Source of the DNA: Halothiobacillaceae bacterium | Lineage (GTDB): Bacteria; Pseudomonadota; Gammaproteobacteria; Halothiobacillales; Halothiobacillaceae | Direction of reading: 5' to 3' | DNA: 43,500 nucleotides | NCBI GenBank assembly: GCA_006212015.1 | Contig: SDAY01000005.1 | Coordinates: 1-43,500 of the forward strand | Shown: positions 15,821 to 34,603 of the stretch, one piece after another | Numbering within the stretch: the first letter of the stretch is position 1 | Layout of the letters: each line of letters begins with the position of its first letter | Program-made: the position numbers and the translations under genes | The notes under the pieces: model-generated | The model's input: only the letters and a program-made list of their open reading frames with translations | What the model was told of the DNA's origin: nothing | Databases searched by the model: none

Positions 15821-15848
15821 TCGGAACCCTCATGAGGCGGGGACGTTA

Positions 15849-15857: not shown

Positions 15858-15883
15858 GGCACGGAAAGGAATTGAGTCCATCC

Positions 15884-18007: not shown

Positions 18008-18157
18008 GACCCGCCCTGTCATACCTGAGGGCTATGATCAGCCAAGGTAAACGGATAAACTCGCGATGGAACCCGGGCATGCACCACCAAGGTTGTGACC
18101 GCTGCGACCGGGACAATAGCAACCGCTAGATAAAACCCAACTTCAAGGAGAAAGAAC

Positions 18158-18802
18158 ATGCCGGCATCCGCACTGATGGGTCTGACCCTCCTGGTCATCG
18201 GCGACAGCCACCTCGCCACCCCCTCCTACCTGATCGGCACCCTGCCCGATCGCCTCGTGGAAGAAGGGGCCAAGGTTCATACGATCGGCGTATGCGGAAC
18301 CAACCCCGCCGACTGGGTCAAACCCAGTCCCGGGGATTGCGGCATGTCCGAGCGTACGGGCGCGGAGACGCCGGTACGCCAGGAGAGCGGAGCCAAGACC
18401 ACGGCCATCAGCGAGCTCATCGCCAAGGACAAGCCGAACGCGGTCATCGTCGTGATGGGAGACACCATCGGCGCCTACAAGAACCCCGAGTTCCCGAAAT
18501 CCTGGGCCTACCAGCAGACGAGCGCGCTGACCAAGGCCATCGCCGCCACCGGCACCGCCTGCTACTGGGTCGGTCCGGGCTGGGGCTCCGAAGGCAGCCG
18601 CTATGGCAAGACCTTCGCGCGTGTCGATGAGCTCAACAAGTTCCTGTCCGAGAACGTCGCGCCCTGCACCTACATCGATTCCACCAAGATGGCCCAGCCG
18701 AACGAATGGAAGACCCTCGACGGCCAGCACTACCTTGGCGGCGGTTACAAGAAATGGGCGAACGCCATCGCCGATGCCATCATCAGCAACCCGCCCAAGT
18801 GA
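18158..18802 (+). CDS. SGNH/GDSL hydrolase-like protein at the head of the acetyl-cellulose locus
   Basis: A 214-residue SGNH-hydrolase-like protein. Block I is VIGDSHLA with the predicted nucleophile S17, the block III-like segment is VMGDTIGAY, and block V is DGQHY with D188 and H191. It may be an acetyl transferase or esterase acting on the polysaccharide; it sits where P. fluorescens has WssF-like proteins near the AlgF/I/J homologues. The ATG at 18158 has a strong ribosome site (aaggag). The catalytic Ser lies only 17 residues in, leaving no room for a cleavable signal peptide, so an unprocessed or cytoplasmic protein is implied. The next gene begins two bases after its stop. Confidence 0.8.
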   Translation: MPASALMGLTLLVIGDSHLATPSYLIGTLPDRLVEEGAKVHTIGVCGTNPADWVKPSPGDCGMSERTGAETPVRQESGAKTTAISELIAKDKPNAVIVVMGDTIGAYKNPEFPKSWAYQQTSALTKAIAATGTACYWVGPGWGSEGSRYGKTFARVDELNKFLSENVAPCTYIDSTKMAQPNEWKTLDGQHYLGGGYKKWANAIADAIISNPPK

Positions 18803-18804
18803 GC

Positions 18805-19470
18805 ATGATGCGCAAACCCCTCTTTGGCGCACTGGTACTGGGCCTCACGGCCCAGTTCTCCGTCCACGCGGCGGAACCCAAGCTGTATCCCACGGGGCCG
18901 TCCGAGGATTCCGCGTTCATCCGCTTTGTCGGAGCGCTTGACGCTCCGATCGAGGTCCGTGCGGGAAAGGATGGGCGCATCGAACTGGCCGCGCATGACA
19001 GCACGACCTGGCAAGCCGTCAAGGCCCACAGCCCGCTCGGCGCGACCCTCGTCCACGGCGGGCAGAACCAGGCCGTGGACGTCTCGGTCCAGCCCGGCGA
19101 GTTCGTCACCGTCGCCGCCCTACCCGATGACAAGGGCGGCTGGACAGCCGGGATCGGCCGCGAATCCCCGACCGACTTCAGCGCCTTCAAGGTCTCGCTC
19201 GGGTTGATGAACATGGCCGAGCATTGCTCGAATGCCGCCATCAAGATCGCGGGCAAGGATGTCGCCATCGTCGAGGACGTGGCGCCCAAGGGCATGAAGC
19301 GCCGGCAGGTCAACCCGCTATCCCTGAGCGTCGACCTGTATTGCGGCGGCCAGCGCAGCGGCGATCCCGTCAATCTGGGCGGGCTGCGCGCGGGTGAACG
19401 CTGGACCCTGCTCGTGCATCCCGCCAGGGATGGCGCGCGCCTGATACCCATCCTCGACCGGATGCCCTGA
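18805..19470 (+). CDS. wssG: AlgF-like periplasmic protein of polysaccharide O-acetylation (WssG-like)
   Basis: A 221-residue exported protein: a signal peptide (about residues 1-22, ending VHA-A) followed by a beta-rich domain with IRFVGALDAPIEVRAG and VDVSVQPGEFVTVA, similar in plan to AlgF and WssG. In alginate and acetylated-cellulose systems AlgF works with the MBOAT AlgI and the SGNH protein AlgJ/X to move acetyl groups to the polymer; it has no known catalytic residues. I start at the ATG pair 18805/18808 just after the preceding stop; the open frame upstream is a shadow of that gene. Assignment rests on moderate similarity plus position directly before the AlgI homologue. Confidence 0.78.
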   Translation: MMRKPLFGALVLGLTAQFSVHAAEPKLYPTGPSEDSAFIRFVGALDAPIEVRAGKDGRIELAAHDSTTWQAVKAHSPLGATLVHGGQNQAVDVSVQPGEFVTVAALPDDKGGWTAGIGRESPTDFSAFKVSLGLMNMAEHCSNAAIKIAGKDVAIVEDVAPKGMKRRQVNPLSLSVDLYCGGQRSGDPVNLGGLRAGERWTLLVHPARDGARLIPILDRMP

Positions 19471-19511
19471 CCCATGCGCCTGGCTCCCCCTCCACACCTG
19501 AGCAGAAGCGC

Positions 19512-20918
19512 ATGGTCTTTGCATCCCTTGAGTTCCTGACGCTGTTCTTTCCGCTTTTCCTGCTGGCCTACAGCCTCAGCCCAAAGGCGCTCAAGAACCT
19601 CACCCTGCTGGCCTTCAGCTGGGTGTTCTATGCCTGGTGGAGCCCCTCGTTCCTGTGGGTGCTGATCGGCGTCACCCTGGTAGCCTGGGGCACCGGCCTC
19701 GGGCTGGCCCGCATGGAGGACGCCCGGCGACGCAAGCTCCTCCTCACCCTGTCGGTCGTGGCCCTGGCAGGACTGCTGGCGTTCTACAAGTACACCAACC
19801 TGATCGTGCTGGAGATCATCCAGCCCTACCTGATCCCGCAGGATCGCGGCTTCACCTGGGAGCGGCTGATCCTTCCGATCGGCATCTCCTTCATCGTGCT
19901 GCAAGCGATCTCGTACGTCGTCGACGTCTATCGGGGCACGGTGAAGGCCGAGCGCGGCTTCGTCGCCTACGCGGCCTACAAGGCGATGTTCTCGCAGCTG
20001 ATCGCCGGCCCCATCGTGCGTTATTCGCATGTCGAACATGAGCTGCACGAGCGCCCATTCGATGTGCGCCACGTCGGCGCCGGCCTGCGCTACTTCATGA
20101 TCGGCCTGTCGATGAAGGTCATCATCGCGGACACCCTGGCGCCGCTGGCCGACGCCTGCTTCGCCCTGCCCCAGCCCACCATGGCCGACGCCTGGCTGGG
20201 CGCCTTCGCCTATGGCATGCAGCTGCTCTTCGACTTCGCCGGCTACAGCGCCATGGCCATCGGCATCGGCCAGATGCTCGGCTTCCGCTTCCCGGAGAAC
20301 TTCGACGCGCCCTACATCTCGCGCTCCATCCAGGAATTCTGGCGTCGCTGGCACATGACCCTGGGCAGCTGGCTGCGCGATTACGTGTACATCCCGCTCG
20401 GCGGCAGCCGCGTCGCCCCGTGGCGCATCTATGTCAACCTGATGCTGGTGATGGCCATCTCCGGCCTCTGGCATGGCGCGGACAGCATCAACTTCCTGCT
20501 CTGGGGCGTCCTGCATGGCCTGGCCATGGTGACCCAGCGCCTGTGGGAGCAGAATGGCGGACCGAAGCTGCCCGCCCTGATCGCCTGGGGCATCACCATG
20601 CTGTTCGTTTTCACCGCCTGGGTGCTGTTCCGCGCCCCGGATCTCGCCACCGCCTGGGCCATGTATCAGGGGCAGCTCGGCCTGCACGGCTTCGGCCTGA
20701 GCGAGGAGGTCGCGCTCATCCTGCGCCCGATGCATGCGCTGACCATGCTGCTTGCCCTTGTCGCTGCCAGCTGGCCGCTGTGGCGGGAACGACGGGCCAT
20801 GCCGCTGCCGCGCATGGCGCAGGACACCCTGGCACTCTGGCCGCTGCTCGGCATGCTCATTGCGACGGCGCTGATGTCCAGCCGCGGCGCGTCGCCCTTC
20901 CTGTACTTTCAGTTCTGA
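19512..20918 (+). CDS. wssH: AlgI-type MBOAT acetyltransferase (WssH-like)
   Basis: A 468-residue multi-pass membrane O-acyltransferase of the AlgI/DltB group, with about ten hydrophobic segments. The family start (VFASLEFLTLFFPLFLLAYS), QEFWRRWHMTLGSWLRDYVYIP and SGLWHGADSINFLLWG are all present; the catalytic His is H321, close to the AlgI position. It takes acetyl groups from a cytoplasmic donor and passes them across the inner membrane to the periplasmic AlgJ/X-like protein. It follows the AlgF-like gene by 41 bases and precedes the AlgJ-like gene by four. Next to bcsA-bcsB this indicates acetylated cellulose rather than alginate. Confidence 0.93.
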   Translation: MVFASLEFLTLFFPLFLLAYSLSPKALKNLTLLAFSWVFYAWWSPSFLWVLIGVTLVAWGTGLGLARMEDARRRKLLLTLSVVALAGLLAFYKYTNLIVLEIIQPYLIPQDRGFTWERLILPIGISFIVLQAISYVVDVYRGTVKAERGFVAYAAYKAMFSQLIAGPIVRYSHVEHELHERPFDVRHVGAGLRYFMIGLSMKVIIADTLAPLADACFALPQPTMADAWLGAFAYGMQLLFDFAGYSAMAIGIGQMLGFRFPENFDAPYISRSIQEFWRRWHMTLGSWLRDYVYIPLGGSRVAPWRIYVNLMLVMAISGLWHGADSINFLLWGVLHGLAMVTQRLWEQNGGPKLPALIAWGITMLFVFTAWVLFRAPDLATAWAMYQGQLGLHGFGLSEEVALILRPMHALTMLLALVAASWPLWRERRAMPLPRMAQDTLALWPLLGMLIATALMSSRGASPFLYFQF

Positions 20919-20922
20919 AGCC

Positions 20923-22062
20923 ATGTCCCAGGAAATCCACAACGAACTCATTCGCAAGCCCTGGCAGGCCTGGGCCTTCATCGGGGCCTTCGGCACCCTG
21001 CTGCTGGGTTTCGGCGCAAGCAACCTGCTGGCCTGGCGCGACGGCGGGCTGGAAAAGACGACCGAAACCGGCTGGAGCGGCTTCTCCGAGGGCAAGCCCA
21101 TGCAGGCCCTCGCCGAAGACCTCCGCACCACCCCGCTCGCCGACTGGATCGGCCAGCGCCAGCGTGAATTCGGCTGGCTGGCCCTGCACGATACCGGCCC
21201 GCGGGTGCACCAGGGCTGCACGGGCTGGCTGTTCCTGCATGACGAACTGAAGGTTCAGCCGCGCGCCGAGAGCAACGCCGCGATCCGGGCGGACATCGCC
21301 ATCCGGTTGCAGCGCCAGCTTGCCGAGCGTGGCACGCGCCTCCTGATCGCCCTGGTGCCCGACAAGAGCCGCATCGAACAGGATCAACTCTGTGAGCTGC
21401 GGCGCCCGTCGCGCCTCGAACCCCGCTACGACGCCTGGCTGGAGACGCTCCGCGGCGCGGGCGTGCCTGTGGTCGACCTGCGCCCGGCCCTGCTCGAGGT
21501 CAGGCAGCGCGCAGGCGCCGCGTACGACCGCAGCGATACCCACTGGAGCATCGAAGGGGCCAAGGCGGCGGCGGCCGCCATGGCCGCCAGTGCGCGCGAT
21601 CTCGGATACGCCCCGGGCACCCCCGTGCGGATCGAATACGAGGCGAGCGAGCCCCGCCCCCGCTGGGGCGACCTGGTCCGCCTCGCCGGCCTCGACGGGC
21701 TGCCGGAGCACCTGAGGCCCGCGCCCGACCAGGTCCCCGCGCTCAGTTTCTCGGCCCAAGCCTCCGAGTCCGGCAGCATCAGCGCCGACGCCCTGTTCGG
21801 CGACGCACCGAACGAGCGGGTGGCCCTGGTCGGAACCTCCTTCTCGCGCAATGCGCACTTTGCGGACTTCCTGTCCCAGGCGCTGGCGACCGAGGCAGGC
21901 AATCTGGCCAAGGACGGGGGCGGCTTCGCCCTGTCGATGGCCGAGCTTCTGGAGCAGGACATCAAGCAAGGATCGCCCACGCCCTGGGTGATATGGGAGA
22001 TCACCGAACGCGCCCTGCAGGAACCCTTGCAGGCCATAGACCACGACTTGACGAAACAATGA
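20923..22062 (+). CDS. wssI: AlgJ/AlgX-like SGNH acetyltransferase (WssI-like)
   Basis: A 379-residue protein with one N-terminal membrane helix (about residues 15-36, signal anchor) and a periplasmic SGNH-like domain. The AlgX/AlgJ catalytic set is visible in its usual order: D205 and H207 in SDTHWS, then S306 in VGTSFSRNAHF. Such proteins transfer acetyl from the MBOAT partner to polysaccharide in the periplasm. It is translated directly behind the AlgI homologue and is the last gene of the acetylation module. An AlgJ-type inner-membrane enzyme fits better than AlgX because no carbohydrate-binding C-terminal domain is apparent. Confidence 0.87.
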   Translation: MSQEIHNELIRKPWQAWAFIGAFGTLLLGFGASNLLAWRDGGLEKTTETGWSGFSEGKPMQALAEDLRTTPLADWIGQRQREFGWLALHDTGPRVHQGCTGWLFLHDELKVQPRAESNAAIRADIAIRLQRQLAERGTRLLIALVPDKSRIEQDQLCELRRPSRLEPRYDAWLETLRGAGVPVVDLRPALLEVRQRAGAAYDRSDTHWSIEGAKAAAAAMAASARDLGYAPGTPVRIEYEASEPRPRWGDLVRLAGLDGLPEHLRPAPDQVPALSFSAQASESGSISADALFGDAPNERVALVGTSFSRNAHFADFLSQALATEAGNLAKDGGGFALSMAELLEQDIKQGSPTPWVIWEITERALQEPLQAIDHDLTKQ

Positions 22063-22090
22063 GCAAAGGACGTGCTCGCGGGCTCATGAG

Positions 22091-22106
22091 CGCGGCGCAT
22101 GCCGCG
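22091..22106 (+). other. Short hairpin between acetylation and synthase modules
   Basis: CGCGGC (22091-22096) and GCCGCG (22101-22106) form a 6-bp stem with a GCAT loop in the 82-base gap before the 22145 gene. No T run follows, so it is not a classical terminator. It could be an mRNA processing or stability element that separates expression of the two halves of the locus. Confidence 0.3.
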
Positions 22107-22144
22107 TTCCCCGCATCGCAAGACCGATAACCGGTAGAACACAG

Positions 22145-22918
22145 ATGAACCCCATCCTGATCTTTGCATCCATCTTCCTGGGCTTGGCCCTGACGCTCCT
22201 GTTCGGGCCGCAGTCGGGCATCATGATCGGGATCCTGGCCTATCTTGCGGGCAGCAGCACCCTGCACTCGCGCGAACTGGTCAAGCTCCAGATGGAATTC
22301 CAGCAACGCATGAGCGAGATCCCGGACATCGTCAACGAACTGGTCGAGCAGAAGCTCAGGGCGTTCATTCCGAAAGAGGCCACATCCATGGCGCCCGCCG
22401 GGGATGTGCCGACGACGGCAGCCCAGGCCTTGCCCCCCCCGACCGAGAACCCCGCCATCGACGAGCGTTTCCTGGCGCTGGATCACAAGCTGTCGGCCCT
22501 GGTGGACCTGCTGGTCGCGCGCGAAGCGCGTACGCCCGAGGCCGCTCCAGTGCCCGTCAAGACCCAAGCCCCCCCTTCCGCCGGGACCATGCCGCCCGCA
22601 GCTGCGCCCGCCCCCCTCGCGCCCGTGACGCCCTCCGGTGCAGCCCGGCGCGAGGCCGTCGAGGCGGACGAGGCCCGCGGCAAGGAGCATGAGGCCGAAC
22701 TCGCCGCCATGCGCGAATTGGTTGAAAAGATGGCGGCCATGCTGACCCTGCAAGAGGCGGCGGCCCACGACCCCAGGGCCCTCATGCCCGAGCCGGCCGA
22801 AACGGCCCGTCCGGCCGCCACGGGCAACCAGCGTCCATCGTTCGATCACCTGCGCGCGGAGCTCGACAAGATCACCCACGAACTGCAAAGCGAGCTGGAT
22901 CGCCCCAAGAAGCGATGA
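22145..22918 (+). CDS. Unknown membrane-anchored coiled-coil protein upstream of bcsA
   Basis: A 257-residue protein that I do not recognise. Residues 4-38 are strongly hydrophobic and could make one long helix or a tight hairpin in the inner membrane. They are followed by an amphipathic, probably coiled-coil helix (about 41-78), a Pro/Ala-rich linker, a short helix (about 105-122), a second Pro/Ala-rich stretch (about 125-165), an acidic helix (about 168-200) and a basic C-terminal helix ending DRPKKR. Its stop overlaps the bcsA start by ATGA, so it is probably made in step with the synthase. It is not recognisably BcsQ, BcsR, BcsD, BcsE, BcsF or BcsG. A scaffold or assembly factor for the synthase is my inference. 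Confidence 0.8.
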   Translation: MNPILIFASIFLGLALTLLFGPQSGIMIGILAYLAGSSTLHSRELVKLQMEFQQRMSEIPDIVNELVEQKLRAFIPKEATSMAPAGDVPTTAAQALPPPTENPAIDERFLALDHKLSALVDLLVAREARTPEAAPVPVKTQAPPSAGTMPPAAAPAPLAPVTPSGAARREAVEADEARGKEHEAELAAMRELVEKMAAMLTLQEAAAHDPRALMPEPAETARPAATGNQRPSFDHLRAELDKITHELQSELDRPKKR

Positions 22919-25197
22919 AACCCTGGCGAGATCTCCACGCGCTCGCGCCCATCCTGCAACGGCACAGTCTTGTCCTGTGGCTGGTCGGACTGTTCTTCCT
23001 GCTCTGGTTGGCAAACCTTCCGTTGACGCGGGAAACCCAGTCCATCACGGTCTTCGCCCTGCTGGGCGTGCTGTTCCTGATCATGTCCAGCATGAACCGG
23101 CTGGAGATCCACCAGGCGCGCGAAATCAAGTTCCTGCGCCTGCTGGCCATCTTCCTCGCCGTGTACGTGAGCTTTCGCTACTTCTCATGGCGCATCAACT
23201 ACACCATCAGCTACCACGACCCGGTGAGCCTGATCTTTGCGTTCATGCTGCTCGGCGCCGAGGTCTACGGACTGGCCATCTATGTCTTGGGGGCCTTCGT
23301 CAATGCCTACCCCATCCACAGGAAAGCCCCGAAACTACCGGACGACCCCGATCTTTACCCGACGCTCGATATCCTGGTTCCGAGCTACAACGAAGACGAG
23401 ACCATGCTCGAACTGACGCTGCTGGCCGCCACGCAGCTCCACTATCCGAAACACCGCTTCAAGGTCTATCTCTGCGATGACGGCGGTTCCATCCAGCGCC
23501 GCAATCGTCCCGACATCTCCGCGGACTCCTGGGAGCGATACCACTCGCTCAACGCCTTGTGCGAGAAAGTGGGCGCCACCTACGTCACCCGCGAAAGAAA
23601 CGTTCACGCCAAGGCCGGCAACATGAACACCGCGCTGGAGAATTACTGCACCGGCGAGCTGGTGCTCATTCTCGACGCCGATCACATCCCCACCGTCGAC
23701 CTTCTCGAGAACACCGTCGGTTTCTTCCTGCAGGATCCGGACCTGTTCCTGGTGCAGACACCGCACTACTTCATCAATCCCGATCCGCTGGAGCGCAACC
23801 TGCGCACCTACGAGCAGATGCCCAGCGAGAACGAGATGTTCTACACGGTGATCCAGCACGGCCTGGATTTCTGGAACGCCTCGTTCTTCTGCGGCTCGGC
23901 CGCGGTCCTGCGCCGCAGCCATCTGGACCCGATCGGCGGCATCGCCGGTGAGACCATCACCGAGGACGCCGAGACCGCCATGACCCTGCACGGCCAGTAC
24001 GGCCTGAACAGCGCCTATTTCGGCAAGCCGATGGTCGCCGGCCTGCAGCCGGAAACCTTCGCCGGCTTCATCGTGCAGCGCACCCGCTGGGCGCAGGGCA
24101 TGGTGCAGATCTTCCTGCTCAAGAACCCCTGGAAGCAGCCGCGCATGGAACTGGTTCAGCGCCTCGCCTACACGGCCTCCGTGTTCTTCTGGTTTTTTCC
24201 CTTCGCGCGCATGATGTTCTTCATCGCGCCCGCGCTGTACCTGCTGTTCTCCTTGCGCATCATGGACGCCTTCCTTCCGACCGACCTGTTCGCCTACGCG
24301 CTGCCGCATGTGATGGCGGCGATGATGCTCAGCAACATCCTCTTCGGGCGCACGCGCTGGCCGCTCATCTCCGAGCTGTATGAAACCATCCAGACCGTCC
24401 ACGCGCTGCCCGCCATCATCAACGTGATCCGCAGCCCCCGCTCGCCCGCCTTCGCGGTGACGCCCAAGGGCGAACGCCTGGAAGAGAGCTTCCTCTCCCA
24501 GCTCGCCCTGCCTTTCTACCTGATGCTGGTCCTGGATGTGATCTGCCTGATCGCGGGCCTCATCCGTCTGCAGGTGGCGCCCGAGGACGCCGCCGTCATC
24601 TACCTCACCATGTCCCTGACCGTCCTGAACATGCTGTTCTCCATGGCCGCCATCGGCGTGATGCTGGAGAAATCACAGAAGCGGGGGGCCTTCCGCATTC
24701 CCACGCAGATCAGCGACATTCCCGCGACGCTGAGCCTCCCTTCAGGCGATGTCCCAATCCGCCTGACCGACATCAGCCACTCGGGCGCCGGACTGTTGAG
24801 CAGCATAAGCCTGCCCAAGGATGAGCGCGTTCGACTCCAGGTGCGCGTCAACGCGCTGGACGGGAAATCCATGGAGATCCCAGGCAAGCTCGTTCGGCAC
24901 AAGTACATCCATAGCCATGAATGGGAGCTTGGCATCATCTTCGAGCCGGAATCCATGGAGCAAAAACGCACCATCGTCGCCCTGGTCTATGGCGACAGCG
25001 ACCTGCACCAGCGCAACCAGCAGCACCGCCAGCGGCGCATCAGCATCAGCGAAGGGTTGTACTTTCTGATCAAGACCGGCACCAGCCATGCCGCCGAGAA
25101 CCTCCTCTTCCTGACCCGCCTTCTCATTCGACAGATTTTCGGTTCAGCAAAACGTTCCATCATGTTCACGATCAAGGCATTGAGAATCCTCCCATGA
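22915..25197 (+). CDS. bcsA: Cellulose synthase catalytic subunit BcsA with PilZ domain
   Basis: A 760-residue inner-membrane GT2 synthase that polymerises UDP-glucose into beta-1,4-glucan and exports it. The N-terminal membrane helices precede a GT2 domain with LCDDGGS (first Asp pair near 187), LILDADHIP (D-x-D near 254-256), ITEDAET (T-E-D near 348) and QRTRWAQGM (Q-x-x-R-W near 387). More membrane helices follow (about 420-570). The C-terminal PilZ domain has R-x-x-x-R (QKRGAFR, near 588) and D-x-S-x-x-G (DISHSGAG, near 619), so c-di-GMP activation is expected. It overlaps its neighbours on both sides by four bases. The C-terminal tail of about 60 residues after PilZ contains basic helices. 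Confidence 0.96.
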   Translation: MKPWRDLHALAPILQRHSLVLWLVGLFFLLWLANLPLTRETQSITVFALLGVLFLIMSSMNRLEIHQAREIKFLRLLAIFLAVYVSFRYFSWRINYTISYHDPVSLIFAFMLLGAEVYGLAIYVLGAFVNAYPIHRKAPKLPDDPDLYPTLDILVPSYNEDETMLELTLLAATQLHYPKHRFKVYLCDDGGSIQRRNRPDISADSWERYHSLNALCEKVGATYVTRERNVHAKAGNMNTALENYCTGELVLILDADHIPTVDLLENTVGFFLQDPDLFLVQTPHYFINPDPLERNLRTYEQMPSENEMFYTVIQHGLDFWNASFFCGSAAVLRRSHLDPIGGIAGETITEDAETAMTLHGQYGLNSAYFGKPMVAGLQPETFAGFIVQRTRWAQGMVQIFLLKNPWKQPRMELVQRLAYTASVFFWFFPFARMMFFIAPALYLLFSLRIMDAFLPTDLFAYALPHVMAAMMLSNILFGRTRWPLISELYETIQTVHALPAIINVIRSPRSPAFAVTPKGERLEESFLSQLALPFYLMLVLDVICLIAGLIRLQVAPEDAAVIYLTMSLTVLNMLFSMAAIGVMLEKSQKRGAFRIPTQISDIPATLSLPSGDVPIRLTDISHSGAGLLSSISLPKDERVRLQVRVNALDGKSMEIPGKLVRHKYIHSHEWELGIIFEPESMEQKRTIVALVYGDSDLHQRNQQHRQRRISISEGLYFLIKTGTSHAAENLLFLTRLLIRQIFGSAKRSIMFTIKALRILP

Positions 25198-27485
25198 GCT
25201 TCAAACCATCCATGCGCTGCCTGGCATTCGGAATCCTCCTGGCCAGCCTGGACGCATCCGCCGCCGCGACAACCCTCGCCGACGAAAAGCTGCGCGTGAC
25301 TCAGTCCGATGGGGAATACAGCATGCAGCTTGGCTGGCTGAACAACGGCCGGCGCATGCCGCTCGACCTTCGCGGCGCAAGCGCGGCCTATGGACTCAAG
25401 CTGCCCGTGCCCCACCGCCTGAACATCGAGGAGAGCAAGCTGGAGGTGGTCTACACCAACTCCATCTCCCTCCAGCCCCGCTCCCAGCTGGCGGTCACGC
25501 TCAATGGCCGGGTGCTGGCCCAGCTCCCCATCAAGGCCGAACAGCCCGATAACGCCGCGCGCATCACCCTGCCGAGCGACGCCCTCAGGGGTGGCTACAA
25601 CGAGCTGGGTTTCCGCGCGGCCCAGCACTACACCTTCGAGTGCGAGGATCCCGCCGCCCCCGAACTGTACTCGCAGGTCGATGCGCTTCAGTCGAAACTT
25701 CGGCTCAAGACCAGCCGCAAGCCGATCGAGACCTCGCTGGCCAAGCTCTCGCGCGTGTTCGACAGCAAGCTGTGGCTCGACCATTACGAGCTCGAGTTGC
25801 TGGTCCCCGCCGGCAGCCTCGAGCGCCATGAGGAACTTCGCCAGGCCGCGGCCCAGGTCAGCCAGTCGATCGCCAGTGCCTTCGAGTACCTGCCGGTTTC
25901 GGTCAATCTGCGCGAACTGAGCGGCGGCGCGGCGGCGGAAGGCCGATTCCCGGGGGTGAAGCTTTCGGAGAAGACCTGGGATGCGGTGCTGCTCGGCACC
26001 CGCGACGAGCTTGCGCCCATGCTGAGTCCGGCCATCCATTCGCGCATCAAGGAGGGTTACATCGGCCTGTTCCGCAGTGACCAGGATCCCACGCGCGCCA
26101 TCCTGGTGGTCAGCGGAGTGACGCCGGCCCAGGTTAGGCAGGCCGCCACGGTGCTGAACCTTCCGGACATCGCCCTGCCCGATCGCGAGGATGTCTCGGT
26201 CTCCGAGCTGAAGATGGACGAAGGTTACGCGCGAACCCAGCCCATGCAGGTCGAGAAGGGCTGGACCCACTTCAGCAATCTGGGCTTCAAGAACACCACC
26301 ATGCATGGCATGTACCCGCAGCCCGCTCAACTGGAGTTCTGGGCGTTCAGGGAGATGTTCGATCCTGCCAAACCCTACGTCGAGATCGAACTCAACGTCG
26401 CCTATGGCGCGGGCTTCGACAAGAAGTCCGCCCTCAACGTCATGCTCAACGACAACTTCATGCAGGCCCTGCACATGCAGGACAGGCATGGAGAACAGCT
26501 CTGGCATGCCAAGATCAAGCTCCCGACCGTCGCGCTGCGCCCTGGCAACAACACGATCAGCTTCGTGCCGACGCTGATCGGCGAGGACGTGGGCGGCGCC
26601 TGCGAACCCATCTTCACCGACCATCTATATGTCTCCATTTTTGAAGACTCGCGCATCGAACTGCCGCCTCTGTCCGACTACATGAGCTTCCCGGATCTTG
26701 CCCTGATGACCAAGACCGGATTGCCCTACACGCGGCTCGCCGACGGCAAGGACATAGGCGTCATGATCACGGACATGCGCCCCGCCACCATGGGCAGCGC
26801 ACTGTCGCTGGTCGCCAAGCTGCGCCAGGTCCACAAGTCACCCCTGACCGCGCTGAGCTTCATCACCGCCAAAAGCGACCTCCACGATCTCGACGGCCTG
26901 ATCGTGGTCGGCGACATCAACACCCTGCCGGACAACCTGGTCAATGAGATGACCCACTTCCTGCCCGGCCAGAGCTGGCAGACCCTCCAGGTCGGCACGC
27001 TGAAAGACACCGATCTTGGCGAAGGCGCCAAGCGCTGGATCAAGCAACCGCTGAAACCGTTCACCGAACTGACCAGCGTCGACACCCCCGCCACGGCAAG
27101 GGTGGTGCTCAGCGAAGGGCTGGGCTCAAGCACCGCCATGGTGCAGTTCATGTCAGCCTCGCTGGGCATCCCCGTCACGGTGCTGACCGCATCCACCCGG
27201 GATCACCTCAAGGATGGCGCCACCCAGATGACCGAGCACTCCACCTGGAGCGCCCTGACAGGAAGCGCCACCCTGTGGACGCCAGATGGCGAAGCCATCG
27301 CCCAGGCCTTTCCGGTCACACACGATTTCATCGGTGACAAGCCGACTGTCAGCCCGGCAAGCTATATCCTCTCCGATCGTCCCTGGTTGAGCGTCATCGC
27401 CGCGCTGACTCTGATATCTTTCATCGCCGGCCTGACCTGGTGGCTGCTGCGCATGCGCGCCCGCCGCATGAATCTCGAATCGTAA
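25194..27485 (+). CDS. bcsB: Cellulose synthase periplasmic subunit BcsB
   Basis: A 763-residue periplasmic partner of BcsA. It has a signal peptide (about residues 1-24), alternating carbohydrate-binding-like and flavodoxin-like domains, and a C-terminal membrane helix (about 731-753) ending in a basic tail, which docks on BcsA. Family-like stretches include NELGFRAAQHYTFECEDP, ELEFWAFRE-like QLEFWAFREMFDP, and GACEPIFTDHLYVSIFEDS. ATG at 25194 overlaps the bcsA stop; a longer frame upstream lies inside bcsA and is not used. It guides the nascent glucan through the periplasm towards the outer membrane porin. Confidence 0.95.
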   Translation: MSFKPSMRCLAFGILLASLDASAAATTLADEKLRVTQSDGEYSMQLGWLNNGRRMPLDLRGASAAYGLKLPVPHRLNIEESKLEVVYTNSISLQPRSQLAVTLNGRVLAQLPIKAEQPDNAARITLPSDALRGGYNELGFRAAQHYTFECEDPAAPELYSQVDALQSKLRLKTSRKPIETSLAKLSRVFDSKLWLDHYELELLVPAGSLERHEELRQAAAQVSQSIASAFEYLPVSVNLRELSGGAAAEGRFPGVKLSEKTWDAVLLGTRDELAPMLSPAIHSRIKEGYIGLFRSDQDPTRAILVVSGVTPAQVRQAATVLNLPDIALPDREDVSVSELKMDEGYARTQPMQVEKGWTHFSNLGFKNTTMHGMYPQPAQLEFWAFREMFDPAKPYVEIELNVAYGAGFDKKSALNVMLNDNFMQALHMQDRHGEQLWHAKIKLPTVALRPGNNTISFVPTLIGEDVGGACEPIFTDHLYVSIFEDSRIELPPLSDYMSFPDLALMTKTGLPYTRLADGKDIGVMITDMRPATMGSALSLVAKLRQVHKSPLTALSFITAKSDLHDLDGLIVVGDINTLPDNLVNEMTHFLPGQSWQTLQVGTLKDTDLGEGAKRWIKQPLKPFTELTSVDTPATARVVLSEGLGSSTAMVQFMSASLGIPVTVLTASTRDHLKDGATQMTEHSTWSALTGSATLWTPDGEAIAQAFPVTHDFIGDKPTVSPASYILSDRPWLSVIAALTLISFIAGLTWWLLRMRARRMNLES

Positions 27486-27503
27486 TCCACGGCTGGACCC
27501 ATC

Positions 27504-28535
27504 ATGATCAAAGGGATGCTTGCATTTCTGGCTGGATGCCTGGGCTGGGCCGCTTGCGCGGTCCAGGCCGCCGCGCTGCCCGCGACCGAATGGGCCAGCT
27601 ACAAGCAGGCCTTCGTGCAGGAAGGGCGCATCGTCGACACGGGCAACCAGAGCATCAGCCACTCGGAGGGTCAGGGCTATGGCATGCTGCTGGCCATCGC
27701 CGCGGATGACCGCGCGAGCTTCGAACAGATCTGGGACTGGACCCGCAAGAACCTGCAGCGCGAGGACACGCTGTTCGGCTGGCGCTGGACCCCGAACAGC
27801 GCCCCCCATGTCCAGGATTGGAACAACGCCACCGATGGCGACCTGCTGATCGCCTGGGCCCTGGCACGCGGTGGCGAGCGCTGGAGCCGAACCGACTGGA
27901 TCGATGAGGCGCGGATGATCGCTCAAGGCATACGAGGATCCCTCATACGGCCGACCCCCTTCGGCCCGGTCATCATCCCGGGGCAGCAAGGGTTCCAGAG
28001 CGAAAAGAAACTGCTTATCAATCCCTCCTACTGGGTCTTCCCGGCATTCAAGCTGCTCAAACGCATCGATCCTGATCCGATCTGGGAGGATCTATTGGAC
28101 TCCGGCCTCGCTCTCATAAGCAAAAGCCGTTTCGGGCCGCATCAATTGCCCCCGGACTGGGTCGTGCTGTACAGCGACCAACGCCTGGGGCTCCCGGAGG
28201 CGCCCAACCAACGAAGAATGGGCTACGAAGCCATCCGTCTGCCGCTGTACTTGTGTTGGGCCGATTTGCCAGACCCCATTATGATGGAAGGCTTCCGGAA
28301 GATTTGGCCCAGCGACCAGGCGCCGGACTGGTTTGATCTTGCCAATGGCGACCGCTCGGCCTTGCCGCTCAGTCTTTCCCAACGCGCCATCCGCCACCTC
28401 GTGGCCCAATGTTCCAGCAAAAACAGGCCCAGCGCCCCCCTCTCCGATCTGGACATCCAGACAAATGATTACTACGGCAGCACACTGACCCTGCTCGTCC
28501 GATTCATACTGGCCCACCCCAAAAACTTGCCATGA
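27504..28535 (+). CDS. bcsZ: BcsZ, GH8 endo-beta-1,4-glucanase
   Basis: A 343-residue periplasmic glycoside hydrolase family 8 cellulase with a signal peptide (about residues 1-23). The general acid region reads SHSEGQGYGMLLAI (E55), and WNNATDGDLLIAWAL carries the conserved D111. At the place of the catalytic base Asp of E. coli BcsZ, in the Y-D-A-I-R motif, this protein has GYEAIRLPLYL, so Glu (E242) replaces Asp; this may be a subgroup variant. BcsZ trims or edits cellulose during export. It starts 18 bases after bcsB and overlaps the bcsC-like gene. Confidence 0.93.
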   Translation: MIKGMLAFLAGCLGWAACAVQAAALPATEWASYKQAFVQEGRIVDTGNQSISHSEGQGYGMLLAIAADDRASFEQIWDWTRKNLQREDTLFGWRWTPNSAPHVQDWNNATDGDLLIAWALARGGERWSRTDWIDEARMIAQGIRGSLIRPTPFGPVIIPGQQGFQSEKKLLINPSYWVFPAFKLLKRIDPDPIWEDLLDSGLALISKSRFGPHQLPPDWVVLYSDQRLGLPEAPNQRRMGYEAIRLPLYLCWADLPDPIMMEGFRKIWPSDQAPDWFDLANGDRSALPLSLSQRAIRHLVAQCSSKNRPSAPLSDLDIQTNDYYGSTLTLLVRFILAHPKNLP

Positions 28536-31012
28536 AACCTCCATTCCTTCTCGTACCGATTCCGTTTGTCCTTCTTCAAGCCGGCCCTGCCCTTGCTGAA
28601 GTCGAATTCATGCCCACATCGCCCCGTGTTGAGCAGATCGCACCGGTGGAGCAGGGCGCGCAGCCGCGAGGCCTGCAAACCCAGCTCAAGGATCGGACGA
28701 GCCTTGCGACCGAGCTTGAGCAACAGGAAAAAGACTCGTCGCTCGTGAAGGGCGCCCCGTTGGGCAACCGCGTTGAGAATCTTCAATCCTTCGATCGTGT
28801 CAACGCCCCCACCCCCGCGAAGGCCGTCGAACCCAAATTCGTTGCCCCGGACGCGCCGGCCGGCGCGACGATTCCAGCCGCCCGCCCCGCGCCCAGGCCG
28901 GTGCGCAAGGCCGCCGACACCGCGCCGAGAACGGCCGCGCCTCCTGCGGCAAGCCAGCCCCAGACGAGCGACCTGAACACATATGACCAGCTCGTGCGGC
29001 AAATCACGGCCGCGGAAGGGGACAACGAGGCGCTCCATCGCCTGATCAAGGGCTCATGGGACGAGGTCGTGCGCGTGCAGGACTTCGGCACCATGGCGCG
29101 CATGGCCTATGTCGCCGCGGAGCTTGGGCATGAGGACGACGCCCTCCTCGCGGCGCGCACGGCGGCGGAGATGACCGAGGACGACCAGTTCTATACCACC
29201 CTCATCGACATCCTCATGCGTTTCAATCGCATGGACGAGGTGGATGGCGTGCTCAAGAAGATGGATCCCAAGGACAAGAATCGCAAGGCCCTTGAGGCGC
29301 GCATCGAGCAGGCCAAGTACGACAAGGTCATCGCGGACATCACCAAGGCGGCGGCCGAGGATCGCAAGGAAGACGTCTACAACCTGATCAAGGGCGCCTG
29401 GGACAGCGTGGTCAAGATGCAGGATTTCGGCGTCATGGCGCGCATGGCCTACACATCTGCGGCGCTGGAGAAGGAAGAGGACGCCATCATGGCGGCGCGC
29501 ACGGCGGCGGAGATGACCGAGGACGACGAGTTCTATGTCCTTGAGGCCAACATGTACATGCGTTTCAAGCGCATGAACGATGTGGAGGCCGTCCTCAAGA
29601 AGATGAACCCCAAGGGTGCGGACTACAAAAAGGTCCTGCTGGGCATGACGCTCACCAAGGCCAACGATGTATTCAAGCAAGGCAACTATGCCGAGGCCGA
29701 AAAGATCCTGCTGGAGAAGCGCGACACGCTGGATGCCGGCGGTCTGGAGTTGCTCGGCTGGGTTCAATACCGCATGGGCAAGATCGAGGAGGCGGCAAGC
29801 CAGTTCGCCGAGGCTTATGCAAAGAGCCCGCGCCGCTCCAACGCCCAAGGCCTGGTCTTCAGCCTGCATCGTATCAAGCGCTACGACGAACTGCTGCAAA
29901 AGGCGGGCGACAAGCCCGGGCCGCTGGATGAATTCCTCTCCCCGGAGATCAAGGAAGCCGTCAAGGCCGGGCAAACACGTTTTGCCGTGGATTCGGCGGG
30001 CACGCTTGTCGTCGCCTCGGGCAGCGGCGGTGGCGGACTGGCCCCGGGGTACACGGTCCGGATCGAGCCGACCTATCGCAACAAGAAGGGCACGCCAGGC
30101 GAGGGCCAACTCAAGCACATGGGTGCGCAAACGACTGTCACATGGAAAGGTGAGCGTGACATGCTCAGCATGGAGTTGACCGGTCAACGCCAGGATGACG
30201 GGGTCGACCCATCGACCAGAAAGAGCGTTTATGGTCTTTGGGAGCGCTCGACGGAGGCAGGCATCAGCTATCGCCTTGGGCTGGGGCAATCCAGCAGCGG
30301 CGACCTGTTGCCCGCAGCCTTGCTCGGCGAGATGGGCCTCAGCTACTACACGCCGGAATGGGGCGGAAGCGCGCGCGTCTTCCGTCGCACCTCCGATGAC
30401 AGCGTGCTGGCCATCAGCGGCAAGCGCGACCCCGCCACGGGGATAGCCTGGGGGCGAGTCCTGCAGACCGGCCTATCGCTTAGCGGCTACGTCAAACTGG
30501 ACGAATGGCACACGATCTACTCATTGACCGCGGCCGAACTGACCGGCGTGAATGTCGCCAGCAACCGCATGATCGGTCTTTATAGCCGCGCCCTGCACCC
30601 CATCCACGACGTCCCCGGGCTGTCGCTCGGCGCGGCCCTCATCGCCAGCAAGTATTCCCGCAACCTGAGCGGCTACGAGCTTGGACACGGAGGCTATTAC
30701 AGCCCCAAGCAAAGCGTTCAGTTGAGCGGCGTCGCAAGCTACGACTTCAAGGTCAGCACGGTTGAAATGAACCTCCTGTCCAGCGCTGGCTACAGCATGA
30801 ACAGCCAGTCCGCCGAAGCGGGCAATCCCCTGACGGGCGAGAACCCGGATGCCTACAAGGCCAGCAGCGGCGGCGGATTCATCTATAGCGCGGTTTTGAG
30901 CGGAAGCGTGCCCATCACGTCGAACTGGGAACTGGGCTTCTCCCTGGGCGCCCAGCAAAGCGACACCTACGAAGACCGGAAAATGGGCCTCTACGCCGAA
31001 GGTCACTACTGA
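28532..31012 (+). CDS. bcsC: Compact BcsC-like outer membrane export protein
   Basis: An 826-residue exported protein (signal peptide to about A22) in the bcsC position after bcsZ. After a Pro/Ala-rich region (about 85-148) come helical TPR-like units, including a tandem pair of about 114 residues (151-262 and 263-376), then a more typical TPR (ANDVFKQGNYAEAEKILL, LELLGWVQYRMGKIEEAA). From about residue 480 alternating strands suggest a beta barrel that ends in an aromatic residue (LYAEGHY), as outer membrane barrels do. Classical BcsC proteins are near 1,150 residues with many more TPRs, so this one is short. The start overlaps the bcsZ stop. Role: carry glucan across the periplasm and outer membrane. 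Confidence 0.82.
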   Translation: MKPPFLLVPIPFVLLQAGPALAEVEFMPTSPRVEQIAPVEQGAQPRGLQTQLKDRTSLATELEQQEKDSSLVKGAPLGNRVENLQSFDRVNAPTPAKAVEPKFVAPDAPAGATIPAARPAPRPVRKAADTAPRTAAPPAASQPQTSDLNTYDQLVRQITAAEGDNEALHRLIKGSWDEVVRVQDFGTMARMAYVAAELGHEDDALLAARTAAEMTEDDQFYTTLIDILMRFNRMDEVDGVLKKMDPKDKNRKALEARIEQAKYDKVIADITKAAAEDRKEDVYNLIKGAWDSVVKMQDFGVMARMAYTSAALEKEEDAIMAARTAAEMTEDDEFYVLEANMYMRFKRMNDVEAVLKKMNPKGADYKKVLLGMTLTKANDVFKQGNYAEAEKILLEKRDTLDAGGLELLGWVQYRMGKIEEAASQFAEAYAKSPRRSNAQGLVFSLHRIKRYDELLQKAGDKPGPLDEFLSPEIKEAVKAGQTRFAVDSAGTLVVASGSGGGGLAPGYTVRIEPTYRNKKGTPGEGQLKHMGAQTTVTWKGERDMLSMELTGQRQDDGVDPSTRKSVYGLWERSTEAGISYRLGLGQSSSGDLLPAALLGEMGLSYYTPEWGGSARVFRRTSDDSVLAISGKRDPATGIAWGRVLQTGLSLSGYVKLDEWHTIYSLTAAELTGVNVASNRMIGLYSRALHPIHDVPGLSLGAALIASKYSRNLSGYELGHGGYYSPKQSVQLSGVASYDFKVSTVEMNLLSSAGYSMNSQSAEAGNPLTGENPDAYKASSGGGFIYSAVLSGSVPITSNWELGFSLGAQQSDTYEDRKMGLYAEGHY
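28982..29659 (+). repeat. Tandem 112-114-codon duplication inside the bcsC-like gene
   Basis: Two consecutive units share LIKGxWDxVVxxQDFG, then MARMAY and AARTAAEMTEDDxFY, with the copies 342 bases apart at their most conserved point (29151 and 29493). There the DNA is identical for more than 30 bases. Unit 2 has a two-residue insertion near its start. The high DNA identity suggests a fairly recent duplication or ongoing gene conversion. Confidence 0.85.
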
Positions 31013-31133
31013 ATGACGGCGCGCCGCACCCCGTCCATGGATTCGACCACCATGACACGCCCGCCGCACCTCGTCGACGGCTGGCGCCGACCCTCCTGGA
31101 ATAGATCGAAAAACCCGGCCCAGACTTGAAGCC

Positions 31134-32270
31134 ATGAAACACATCCTTCCTTATCTACTGATCTTCGTGGGCATGAGCGTCACCGGGTGTTCCAGCGTCA
31201 CAAGCTTACCCTTCATCCAGAAGGGCGAGACGGCCGCTCCCGGCCGGCCAGACCGCCTCCCCGATGCAACTGGCCCCGAGAAGGGTGCGTCCGTCCAGCC
31301 GCCCAGGCTTTACCCGAGGCAGGAGCCCGACGTAAGCGACTTTGAACTCAGGCCGTACCAAGCCCCCGCGCCTGGGAAGCCGTCCGCCGAACCCTCGACC
31401 TCGCAACCCGAGATCCGTCCCGGCGAGTGCTGGGTCCAGGCGGTCATTCACCCCAAGCCGGTGCGCAAGCCCGTCGACATCGTCGTGCGCGACGCGGTCA
31501 ACGACATTGATGTCACCCCCGCCGAGATCGAGCCCGCGTGGCAGAAAGTGGTCGTCCGCGAGGGCGGCATCACCTATCGCATCGAGCCGCCCGTCTACAA
31601 GCGGGTCATCGAGAAGGTCGTGGTGCGCCCCGAGATCCGCCGCACGATCGTCGTGCCTGCCGTGTACGAGGAGCAGGAGTCCGTGATCGAGATCGAGGCC
31701 GCACGCACCGTGCTCGAGCGCTGCAAGGTGTCCACCGCTGTCCGCTCGTCCGACATCCCCGTGCAGGCACTCTGCGCCCGTCTGATCCCTGCCAGGAGCA
31801 AGACCGTCAAGCGCAAGCTCCTGGTGCAGCCCGAAACCACCCGCGAGGAGGTCGAGCCGGCGGTCTACAAGGAGATCACCCGCTGGGTCATCGAGACCCC
31901 CGCGCGCGCCGTGCCCGTGGAGACTCCACCGGAGATGGGCAGCATGCGCGTGCGCAAGATCGCCGCGCCGGAACAGGTCGAGGAAGAGCAGCTCCCCCCG
32001 CAGGTCCGCCACTTCGTCACCACGCAGTACGAAGGCTCGCCGTCCATCATCTTCCGCCGCGTCCTGTGCGACCAGGAGGTCACACCGGAACGGATCCAGG
32101 CACTCCAGGGGGCGCTCAAGCAGGCCGGATTCGACCCCGGGACGAGCGACGGCAAGCTGGGCAAGCGCACCTTCGCCGCCCTGCTCGAGTACCAGCGCCA
32201 GAACGGCCTCGCCCATGGCGCGCTGACCCATGAGAGCCTGGAGCAGCTCGGAATCAAGGCGGCGCATTGA
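31134..32270 (+). CDS. Lipoprotein with repeat region and C-terminal peptidoglycan-binding domain
   Basis: A 378-residue predicted outer-membrane lipoprotein: lipobox VTGC with C19 followed by Ser (no Asp retention signal). A low-complexity Pro-rich part (about 30-95) leads to a beta-rich repeat region (about 100-310) in which units like EPPVYKRVIEKVVVRPE, VPAVYEEQESVIEIEAA and EPAVYKEITRWVIETPA recur. A PG_binding_1-like domain closes the protein (about 318-378: ERIQALQGALKQAGFDPG, GKLGKRTFAALLEYQRQNG). It sits 121 bases after the bcsC-like gene and overlaps the region just before the GGDEF-EAL gene, so it belongs to the same locus. It could anchor the export porin to the wall; this is inference. 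Confidence 0.83.
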   Translation: MKHILPYLLIFVGMSVTGCSSVTSLPFIQKGETAAPGRPDRLPDATGPEKGASVQPPRLYPRQEPDVSDFELRPYQAPAPGKPSAEPSTSQPEIRPGECWVQAVIHPKPVRKPVDIVVRDAVNDIDVTPAEIEPAWQKVVVREGGITYRIEPPVYKRVIEKVVVRPEIRRTIVVPAVYEEQESVIEIEAARTVLERCKVSTAVRSSDIPVQALCARLIPARSKTVKRKLLVQPETTREEVEPAVYKEITRWVIETPARAVPVETPPEMGSMRVRKIAAPEQVEEEQLPPQVRHFVTTQYEGSPSIIFRRVLCDQEVTPERIQALQGALKQAGFDPGTSDGKLGKRTFAALLEYQRQNGLAHGALTHESLEQLGIKAAH

Positions 32271-32272
32271 CC

Positions 32273-34435
32273 ATGACACGCGCCCCCCGCCTGGCCCCGG
32301 ACATGCCCGACAGGCAGGCCATCATGAGCATGCGCGCATCGATCCTGCCCACCCTCGTCCTGCCGCATCTCGTGCTCGGCGGGGTGCTGGCCACCCTCGC
32401 CATGCAAGGCCAGTGGGCGACGGCCCTGGCCGGACGGCCGCTGGGCATGGAGGATCTCCTGCTGCCGGGGTTGTTCGCCGAGCTTGCGCTGCTTCTTGCC
32501 CAGCTCGTGCTCTGGAGACTGCGCTTTGGCCTCCTCTCCCGCACCATCGAGCAGATGGTCACGCAGGACGCGGCCGAGATCCCCTGGCAAAACCGGCGGG
32601 GCGCGCTGGGCCAACTGGCCGAGGCACTGCTCAAGCTCCGCCAGGCCAGGCGCGGCACCAAGGTCGCCCTGGAGCGCAGCCGCGAAACCCACGCCCAACT
32701 GCAACAGGAGAGCTCCGCCAGGCGCGAAGCCGAGGTCAAGAATCTTTTGGCCCTCTCGGTCTATGCCCATCTCGACGAGGCGGTCTTCTTCAGCTCTCCA
32801 CAGGGCGTCATCCTGCAGGTCAACCCGGCCTTCGAGCGCCTGCTCGGCTACCCGGCCCACAGGGTGGAGGGCAGGACCAGCGCCGAACTGCTGATGCCGG
32901 ACAATCCCGCCCTGCACCAGGCCATCATGGGCGTGCTGAGGCGCGACGGCCTCTGGCAGGGCGAGGCCGCGCTGCGGCGGGCCGACAACAGGCACCTGCC
33001 GACCGACCTCACCTGCCGTGCCATCAAGGACGCGGACGGGACCATCCGGCATGTCATGGGGGTGTTCCAGGACCTGAGCGAGAGACGCTCCGCGCGCGCG
33101 CGGCTGCATGAGCTGACCCACCACGACCCCCTGACCGGCCGACTCAATCGCGCCAGCTTCATGAGCACCCTGCGCGAGGTGCTGGCCGCCAGGCAGGCGC
33201 CCATCCAGGCCCTGCTGCTCGTCGGCATCGACCGGCTCAAGGCCATCAATGACACGCTCGGGCACCGAACCGGCGACCATGTGTTGCGCGAGGTGGCGCA
33301 CCGTCTGGGCCAGACGTTGCGCAAGAACGATATCCTCGCCCGCATTGGCGGCGATGAGTTCGCCATCCTCATGCCTGCCTTCGAGAACACCGAGCAGGCG
33401 AAGGCGTTCGCCATGTCCCATGCCGAATCCCTCCTGACGCGGCTGCGCGACCCGATCCAGCTCGACCGCGACCACTACTCGCTCAAGATCACCGCGAGCC
33501 TCGGCATCGCCTTCAGCCCGCATGATGGCAATCAGGCGGAGGCCCTGTTGCAGGCCGCCGATCTGGCCCTGCTGGCCGTCAAGCGCGCCGGGCGCGACCA
33601 GGCCAGCCTCTACCTCCCATCCCTGGGCGAACGCATCAACCAGCGTTTTCGCATCGAGCAGGGCTTGCGCCGCGCGCTTGAGAACAGGGAGTTCGAGATC
33701 TTCATGCAACCCCTGATCGAGGCCGGAAGCGCTGAACTGAAGGGATTCGAATGCCTCATTCGCTGGACCCAAGGCGGCACCACGCCGATCTCCCCCGCGG
33801 ATTTCATCCCGGTCGCCGAGGAGATCGGCATGATCGAACCCATCACCGAGTGGATCGTGCGGGAGGGCTGCCGCCATCTCGCCAGTTGGCGCCGGTCCAC
33901 CCGGCGCGAGTTGTTCATCTCCATCAACCTCAGCCCCCGCCACCTGCTGCGAGACGACCTGGCGCAGATGCTGCTGGAGGCCCTGCGCCCCCATGGCCTG
34001 AGCGCCTCCGCCCTGCTGATCGAACTGACCGAAGGCGGGCTGGTCGGCGGCCTGGAACTCGTACACGAACGCATTCACCACCTGGCCATGCATGGCTTCC
34101 AGATCGCCATCGATGACTTCGGCACCGGACATTCCAGTCTTGGCATGCTGACCGAGCTGCCCATCGACAAACTCAAGATCGACCAGAGCTTCGTGCGTGA
34201 CCGCGTCCCGCATGACCCGGAGGCGGTCAAGGTGCTGGACGCCATGCTGGCCCTGGCGCGCGAGCTGCAGTTGCCCGTGGTGGTGGAGGGCGTGGAGACC
34301 CTCGAGCAGGCCCAGCTCATCCGCTCGCGCAACAGCCAGGCCCTGCTGCAGGGCTTCTACTTCGACCGGCCACAATCCGCCTTCAGCTGGGACGGCCGCC
34401 TGCTGGATGGCACCCTGCCGAATTACAAGTTCTGA
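32273..34435 (+). CDS. Membrane PAS-GGDEF-EAL protein (c-di-GMP turnover)
   Basis: A 720-residue protein with two N-terminal membrane helices (about 28-48, 60-82), a coiled segment, a PAS domain (about 157-275), GGDEF (about 280-450) and EAL (about 460-715). The cyclase site IGGDEFAI (359-363) is intact, with an RKND inhibitory site five residues before it. The EAL signature reads GFECLIRW, so E493 is kept while Ala is Cys; the other catalytic motifs (INLSPRHL, ELTEGG, IDDFGTGHSS, KIDQSF, VEGVET) are present, so phosphodiesterase activity is plausible. It begins three bases after the lipoprotein stop (in-frame TTG at 32267 possible). It likely sets local c-di-GMP for the BcsA PilZ domain. Confidence 0.9.
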   Translation: MTRAPRLAPDMPDRQAIMSMRASILPTLVLPHLVLGGVLATLAMQGQWATALAGRPLGMEDLLLPGLFAELALLLAQLVLWRLRFGLLSRTIEQMVTQDAAEIPWQNRRGALGQLAEALLKLRQARRGTKVALERSRETHAQLQQESSARREAEVKNLLALSVYAHLDEAVFFSSPQGVILQVNPAFERLLGYPAHRVEGRTSAELLMPDNPALHQAIMGVLRRDGLWQGEAALRRADNRHLPTDLTCRAIKDADGTIRHVMGVFQDLSERRSARARLHELTHHDPLTGRLNRASFMSTLREVLAARQAPIQALLLVGIDRLKAINDTLGHRTGDHVLREVAHRLGQTLRKNDILARIGGDEFAILMPAFENTEQAKAFAMSHAESLLTRLRDPIQLDRDHYSLKITASLGIAFSPHDGNQAEALLQAADLALLAVKRAGRDQASLYLPSLGERINQRFRIEQGLRRALENREFEIFMQPLIEAGSAELKGFECLIRWTQGGTTPISPADFIPVAEEIGMIEPITEWIVREGCRHLASWRRSTRRELFISINLSPRHLLRDDLAQMLLEALRPHGLSASALLIELTEGGLVGGLELVHERIHHLAMHGFQIAIDDFGTGHSSLGMLTELPIDKLKIDQSFVRDRVPHDPEAVKVLDAMLALARELQLPVVVEGVETLEQAQLIRSRNSQALLQGFYFDRPQSAFSWDGRLLDGTLPNYKF

Positions 34436-34445
34436 GGGATTGGCC

Positions 34446-34470
34446 ATAAAAAGGGCGCCTTGCGGCGCCC
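34446..34470 (-). terminator. Rho-independent terminator of polA
   Basis: GGGCGCC (34453-34459) and GGCGCCC (34464-34470) form a perfect 7-bp stem with a 4-base loop. Read on the minus strand the hairpin is followed by TTTTTAT, the classic form. It lies about 135 bases past the polA stop and ten bases beyond the end of the GGDEF-EAL gene. On the plus strand there is no T run, so it would be a weak stop for the cellulose operon. Confidence 0.75.
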
Positions 34471-34603
34471 ATCAAGGCATCGAGACGGGCCCGGCGTTCC
34501 TGCGGGGTGACGTCATGACCCGCCGTTGCAGCGGGCTTGCACACTGAGAGCCCTCCCCGGCCAATAAGTTCCTGACCCCTGACCCCCGCCCCCCTGAAAA
34601 GGA

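Follow-up and report, generated by a model that had tools for sequence, protein, structure and literature searches.

A rearranged relative of the wss locus with acetylation genes ahead of the cellulose synthase core in a Halothiobacillaceae bacterium

Results

We analysed a 43.5 kb contig of a Halothiobacillaceae bacterium (SDAY01000005.1), hereafter the window, which comprises the whole contig and belongs to a host genome of 2.39 Mb. Between positions 18158 and 34435 eleven genes lie on the plus strand, in which a four-gene acetylation cassette precedes a bcsA-B-Z-C cellulose synthase core. The locus is a rearranged relative of the wss system of Pseudomonas fluorescens SBW25 and no new kind of system. 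Judged from its sequence, its product is very probably acetylated cellulose, which would be made and exported in the way known from wss. Family matches and the list of open reading frames (ORFs) give the order SGNH, AlgF, MBOAT, AlgJ-like, gene 5, bcsA, bcsB, bcsZ, short bcsC, a gene for a peptidoglycan-binding lipoprotein (pgb) and a PAS-GGDEF-EAL gene (pge), and bear out the eleven genes and the order proposed in the original prediction, which had been made from the DNA letters alone. That prediction also held that a complete acetylation set is linked to the synthase and stands ahead of the core, unlike in wss. This proved correct: the internal order of the four genes is that of wssF-G-H-I, but they lie 5' of bcsA.

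The cassette-first order was found in one family only

Among the 27 genomes of the order, BcsB occurs in ten and a strong AlgX-family match in two, the window's own genome and one from another genus (G022). In the latter, genes 1 to 10 of the run recur in unchanged order, followed by a gene for a secreted GH5 endoglucanase-like protein (L016:208-2052), and there is no GGDEF-EAL gene. Such agreement between two genera shows that the arrangement is not due to chance. In the class (369 genomes), the window is alone in giving a strong AlgX-family match; a WssF-type gene was found in five of 398 genomes of the phylum, the window's included. Three of these five, all from one genus, have the order bcsA-B-Z-C-SGNH(-SGNH)-algF-MBOAT-algX, which is the published wss order; the remaining one carries the cassette, and the 20 kb read there showed no bcs gene. 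Further afield, a Burkholderiaceae metagenome-assembled genome (MAG) has bcsA-B-C and then the cassette, a Methylobacterium plasmid reads bcsA-B-C-D-MBOAT-algX-SGNH, and in an alphaproteobacterial MAG the cassette is divergent from the adjacent bcsA. A comparison of gene neighbourhoods had been named beforehand as a check; among the loci found here the cassette-first order occurs in the window and G022 only, hence solely in the window's family; at the other linked loci the cassette follows the core or diverges from it.

Related gene sets were also seen in other settings. Stretches of alphaproteobacterial MAGs (L059:3-3229, L060:6228-9157) carry three to four WssF-type SGNH genes in tandem before AlgF-MBOAT-AlgX and a GH8 gene, with no bcsA on the stretch read. 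On Deinococcus and Paraburkholderia plasmids (L138:8304-11545, L139:878-9834) AlgF-MBOAT-AlgJ sets lie either next to a GH5 gene or next to genes resembling cellulose synthase and N4 adsorption protein A; these are predicted acetylation sets on other polysaccharide loci.

Cassette and backbone have separate histories

Outside the family, the nearest relatives of the cassette are found in Comamonadaceae/Burkholderiaceae. The cassette proteins of one such locus (L057) are 67% (SGNH), 54% (AlgF), 66% (MBOAT) and 54% (AlgX) identical to those of the window, compared with 69%, 55%, 74% and 57% for G022. For BcsA, the identity to the window is only 37% in L057 and 72% in G022. The cassette of L057 is thus nearly as close as that of G022 while its synthase is distant, demonstrating that cassette and backbone differ in history. 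The trees agree: for BcsA, the window and G022 group together (support 100/100) apart from the same-genus genomes G023-G025, and for the MBOAT the two group with L056 and L057 (100/100). The sequences indicate that the cassette has moved between distantly related bcs backbones.

The synthase operon itself was not inherited vertically within the genus, as BcsA is closer to that of G022 (72%) than to those of same-genus genomes (57-61%), while the housekeeping control GshA is closer to the same-genus genomes (84-90%) than to G022 (67%). This argument uses GshA as a single control together with the trees. The locus sits between a HIT gene and polA, as do the bcs genes of the sister species, and the resident GGDEF-EAL gene is kept at its 3' end.

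Catalytic motifs and proposed mechanism

Gene 4 is closer to AlgJ (4o8v, 2e-35) than to AlgX (1e-18) and hence corresponds to WssI. Its DTHW and GTSF motifs align to AlgJ/AlgX and are kept in G022, and the partner serine and Asp-x-His of the SGNH family are present. The gene 3 product has the conserved MBOAT histidine (WHG) and ends in FLYFQF, which fits the FxYxxF acyl-shuttle motif; all 14 cassette-type MBOATs checked share this ending. The tyrosine of the motif is acetylated in PatA, and the authors who defined it extended the mechanism of the MBOAT-SGNH pair to cellulose (PMC12148441). WssI has been shown to acetylate cello-oligomers (PMC10302187). A third WssF-type paralogue (57%; G000:C185:6315-6956, L180) is followed by its own MBOAT gene, the product of which ends in FAVYSQR and has no FxYxxF motif.

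Gene 1 has a sub-threshold match to DUF459 as its only family match, and a sequence search of the PDB returned chance matches only, so that a fold search was needed. The AlphaFold model (predicted local distance difference test, pLDDT, 95) has the SGNH hydrolase fold, and its structural matches include PatB and OatA as well as plain esterases and acetylesterases. The catalytic triad is invariant in 17 of 17 homologues. BcsX is described as an SGNH domain of about 220 amino acids with the triad S16, D187 and H190 (PMC9318390); S17, D188 and H191 of gene 1 match these residues with a shift of one, and T103 corresponds to the threonine near the oxyanion hole. We assign gene 1 to the WssF/BcsX type from fold, length and triad numbering.

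From these features we infer the chemistry, the product, a single transcript and the cellular roles as follows. BcsA-BcsB would polymerise UDP-glucose and pass the chain into the periplasm when cyclic di-GMP (c-di-GMP) binds to the PilZ domain. The gene 3 MBOAT would use acetyl-CoA to acetylate the FLYFQF tyrosine, and the AlgJ/WssI-like gene 4 protein would take the acetyl group on its serine and hand it to glucose hydroxyls, with the products of gene 2 (AlgF) and gene 1 (the second SGNH protein) assisting. BcsZ would trim the chain and the short BcsC export it, the lipoprotein perhaps tying the exporter to the wall. The role of the PAS-GGDEF-EAL protein would be to adjust c-di-GMP locally; it is less likely to be an activator than a sink or an enzyme working in both directions.

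Alternative explanations

Some observations weigh against this mechanism. The gap of 121 bp between bcsC and pgb, the longest inside the run, leaves room for a second promoter, both SGNH proteins could deacetylate instead of acetylating, and gene 1 may miss the periplasm since the 17 homologues (the window's and 16 others) begin directly at the first SGNH strand, with a recognisable leader in none of them. BcsX presents the same ambiguity, being negative in SignalP and positive in Phobius, and its description calls it a putative deacylase (PMC9318390). The absence of a leader suggests the cytosol. On the other hand, each of the 17 homologues has four cysteines and no more, every one of them invariant; this would fit disulfide bonds formed outside the cytosol and, if the cysteines are paired, point to the periplasm. 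Gene 1 might thus be a deacetylase or quality-control esterase, possibly cytosolic, as its acetylesterase matches would also allow; given that P. fluorescens mutated in wssF has a phenotype in common with wssI mutants (PMC10302187), we lean towards a transferase but regard the esterase as a serious possibility. Another alternative divides the locus into two independent units, with the acetylation genes on a separate transcript and modifying another polymer or serving another synthase. The cassette's own history, and its presence in several alphaproteobacterial contigs with no adjacent bcsA detected, would be compatible with such a split. However, the two blocks flank gene 5, itself overlapping bcsA, the junction of cassette and bcs genes is kept in the second genus, and BcsB has a single match across the host genome; we therefore give two separate units very little chance.

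A further question concerns the PAS-GGDEF-EAL protein. The original prediction counted it as the locus's own c-di-GMP enzyme, which would make the locus a self-contained unit from sensing and activation to export; on this reading, taken as a diguanylate cyclase, it would switch on synthesis. Its intact GGDEF motif and RxxD I-site and the 4-bp overlap of its gene with pgb agree with this view, but most of the evidence does not. Compared with the protein of the sister species G024, the EAL half is best conserved (identity 71%; GGDEF 53%, PAS 44%), a sign that the protein may serve to remove c-di-GMP and not to provide it; the sister protein has SGDEF in place of GGDEF, and the closest NCBIfam models, although below their cut-off, are phosphodiesterases. 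The gene already adjoins bcsC in G024, which has no acetylation genes, and is missing from the acetylated locus of G022; the host genome has 22 GGDEF matches, this one included. In E. coli K-12 the GGDEF/EAL gene pdeK likewise lies directly 3' of bcsC on the same strand, and PdeK is described as a local c-di-GMP sink for BcsA (PMC8669469). Thus, the gene belongs to the resident locus and local tuning of c-di-GMP is supported, while a dedicated activating cyclase is unlikely.

A small membrane gene before bcsA

Gene 5 matches no Pfam or other family, BcsR included, and a scan of genome contigs with gene 5 as the query found no relative. A single-sequence model of low confidence (pLDDT 52) places helices at residues 3-20 and 22-37. 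Three sister species in which no acetylation genes were detected have an ORF of 65-68 amino acids in this position, which overlaps bcsA or adjoins it (Table 1). These ORFs follow a plan like that of gene 5, a hydrophobic Gly-rich hairpin and then a charged helix, and a profile comparison (hhalign) gave a probability of 54.5%, by which homology is suggested but not proven. Gene 5 of the window and of G022 has a longer tail, rich in Pro/Ala. From its sequence, gene 5 is possibly an enlarged counterpart of the sister species' gene. The original prediction listed it as an unknown gene, which stands as regards family matches and is qualified by the counterparts before bcsA in the sisters. That a small gene before bcsA is widespread was considered and rejected, as no like ORF was found at 22 other bcsA loci of the class.

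Gene 5 resembles BcsP and BcsR, cytosolic partners of the synthase that are proline-rich or small and whose genes accompany bcs genes, in being Pro/Ala-rich and encoded beside bcsA. Its N-terminus is a predicted hydrophobic membrane hairpin, where BcsR has a hairpin that plugs BcsA from the cytosol. Gene 5 and its counterparts might constitute an undescribed membrane subunit of the family's cellulose synthase complex, the tail of which has grown in the acetylating lineages and holds the cassette proteins to the synthase. Such a tether would explain why the cassette lies directly before gene 5; we put this forward as a speculation with little chance of being right.

Gene packing and neighbourhood

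Start codons were corrected for AlgF (about 18805 instead of 18706) and BcsB (about 25194). Overlaps of 4 bp link gene 5 with bcsA, bcsZ with bcsC and pgb with pge, and 4 bp separate the MBOAT and AlgX-family genes. BcsC is short compared with the 1157 positions of the E. coli NCBIfam model. The predicted absence of bcsQ, bcsD, bcsE and bcsG is upheld by the lack of matches among the scanned ORFs of the window; for bcsF and bcsR, which had been included in the same claim, genes of about 60 amino acids were not scanned singly. Genome-wide BcsQ matches are weak and this search is uninformative, since the same family matches 14 of 14 control genomes. No sigma-70-type sites were found in 17400-35000, a negative that tells little for this organism. 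Immediately 5' of the run, on the same strand, lie motA, motB and the HIT-domain gene (15848-18007). The window's family is rich in alpha-carboxysome genes, which are absent from its own genus; as a guess, this would fit sulfur-oxidising autotrophs such as Halothiobacillaceae.

Table 1. Genes of the run and counterparts of gene 5 in sister species
Feature	Position (strand)	Length	Assignment	Matches and motifs
Gene 1	18158..18802 (+)	214 aa	WssF/BcsX-type SGNH	Triad Ser17, Asp188, His191; strong ribosome site before ATG 18158
Gene 2	18805..19470 (+)		AlgF/WssG-like	PF11182 2e-10; N-terminal signal-like stretch
Gene 3	19512..20918 (+)		AlgI/WssH-type MBOAT	PF03062 5e-25; WHG; C-terminal FLYFQF
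Gene 4	20923..22062 (+)		Putative AlgJ/WssI-type membrane-anchored SGNH acetyltransferase	ALGX PF16822 3e-73; DTHW, GTSF
Gene 5	22145..22918 (+)	257 aa	Membrane hairpin, Pro/Ala-rich coiled-coil tail	No family match
bcsA	22915..25197 (+)		UDP-forming cellulose synthase with PilZ	CelA TIGR03030 8e-240, above cut-off; TED, QRTRW; PilZ RGAFR (RxxxR) and DISHSG (DxSxxG)
bcsB	25194..27485 (+)		BcsB	PF03170 1e-73
bcsZ	27504..28535 (+)		GH8 endoglucanase	PF01270 3e-58
bcsC	28532..31012 (+)	826 aa	Short; TPR and outer-membrane barrel	BCSC_C PF05420 1.5e-35
pgb	31134..32270 (+)		Lipoprotein, C-terminal peptidoglycan-binding domain	PG_binding_1 PF01471 2e-8; lipobox VTGC
pge	32267..34435 (+)		PAS-GGDEF-EAL protein	Pfam; RxxD I-site, GGDEF, all EAL catalytic residues (ECL variant)
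Gene 5 counterpart	L021:15063-15260		Gly-rich membrane hairpin	
Gene 5 counterpart	L018:12970-13176		Gly-rich membrane hairpin	
Gene 5 counterpart	L017:7292-7492 (-)		Gly-rich membrane hairpin	

A second contig of the same genome, C98 (L181:1-4605, 4605 bp), carries bcsZ', bcsC', an extra WssF-type gene and pgb', in this order. Its two ends reproduce window 27525-27650 (126 bp) and 31416-31536 (121 bp) without a mismatch, and its bcsZ' is 98-100% identical to that of the window for about 300 bp and then about 70%. Because the window runs through both junctions, C98 looks like an alternative path of the assembly graph; a tandem duplication was set aside, as both ends match the window exactly and the window continues through both points. 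C98 may represent another bcsZ-bcsC-pgb allele in the sampled population, i.e. strain variation, and two copies in one genome are possible.

Discussion

The locus shares with wss the bcsA-B-Z-C core (WssB-C-D-E) and homologues of WssF, G, H and I in this order. It differs in that the cassette is 5' and not 3' of the core, that the MinD/BcsQ-like wssA and wssJ, which stand at the ends of the wss operon, have no equivalent beside the run, that gene 5, the lipoprotein and the PAS-GGDEF-EAL protein are added, and that BcsC is short. Komagataeibacter bcsII (bcsAB-bcsX-bcsY-bcsC) is likewise a cellulose operon that includes an acyltransferase and an SGNH protein of the BcsX type, but its bcsAB is fused, the accessory genes lie between synthase and bcsC, and its description names no AlgF/AlgJ homologue (PMC9318390). 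The AlgI-J-F-X system of Pseudomonas aeruginosa resembles the cassette in its AlgI, AlgJ and AlgF homologues and its MBOAT-SGNH relay, whereas the window has cellulose instead of alginate genes and gene 1 is without the carbohydrate-binding module of AlgX. E. coli bcsABZC-pdeK shares the position of the GGDEF/EAL protein but has no acetylation genes, and its cellulose is modified with phosphoethanolamine by BcsG.

Acetylated-cellulose operons have seldom been reported; a survey from 2020 counted four in 1733 genomes and proposed the alginate genes of Pseudomonas as the origin of the cassette (PMC7112194). The window, G022 and their Burkholderiaceae relatives indicate that the cassette keeps its internal order while it moves between distant cellulose cores and comes to lie before or behind them. 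The locus thereby raises two testable questions, one concerning the membrane gene before bcsA and the other the WssF/BcsX family, leaderless yet with four invariant cysteines.

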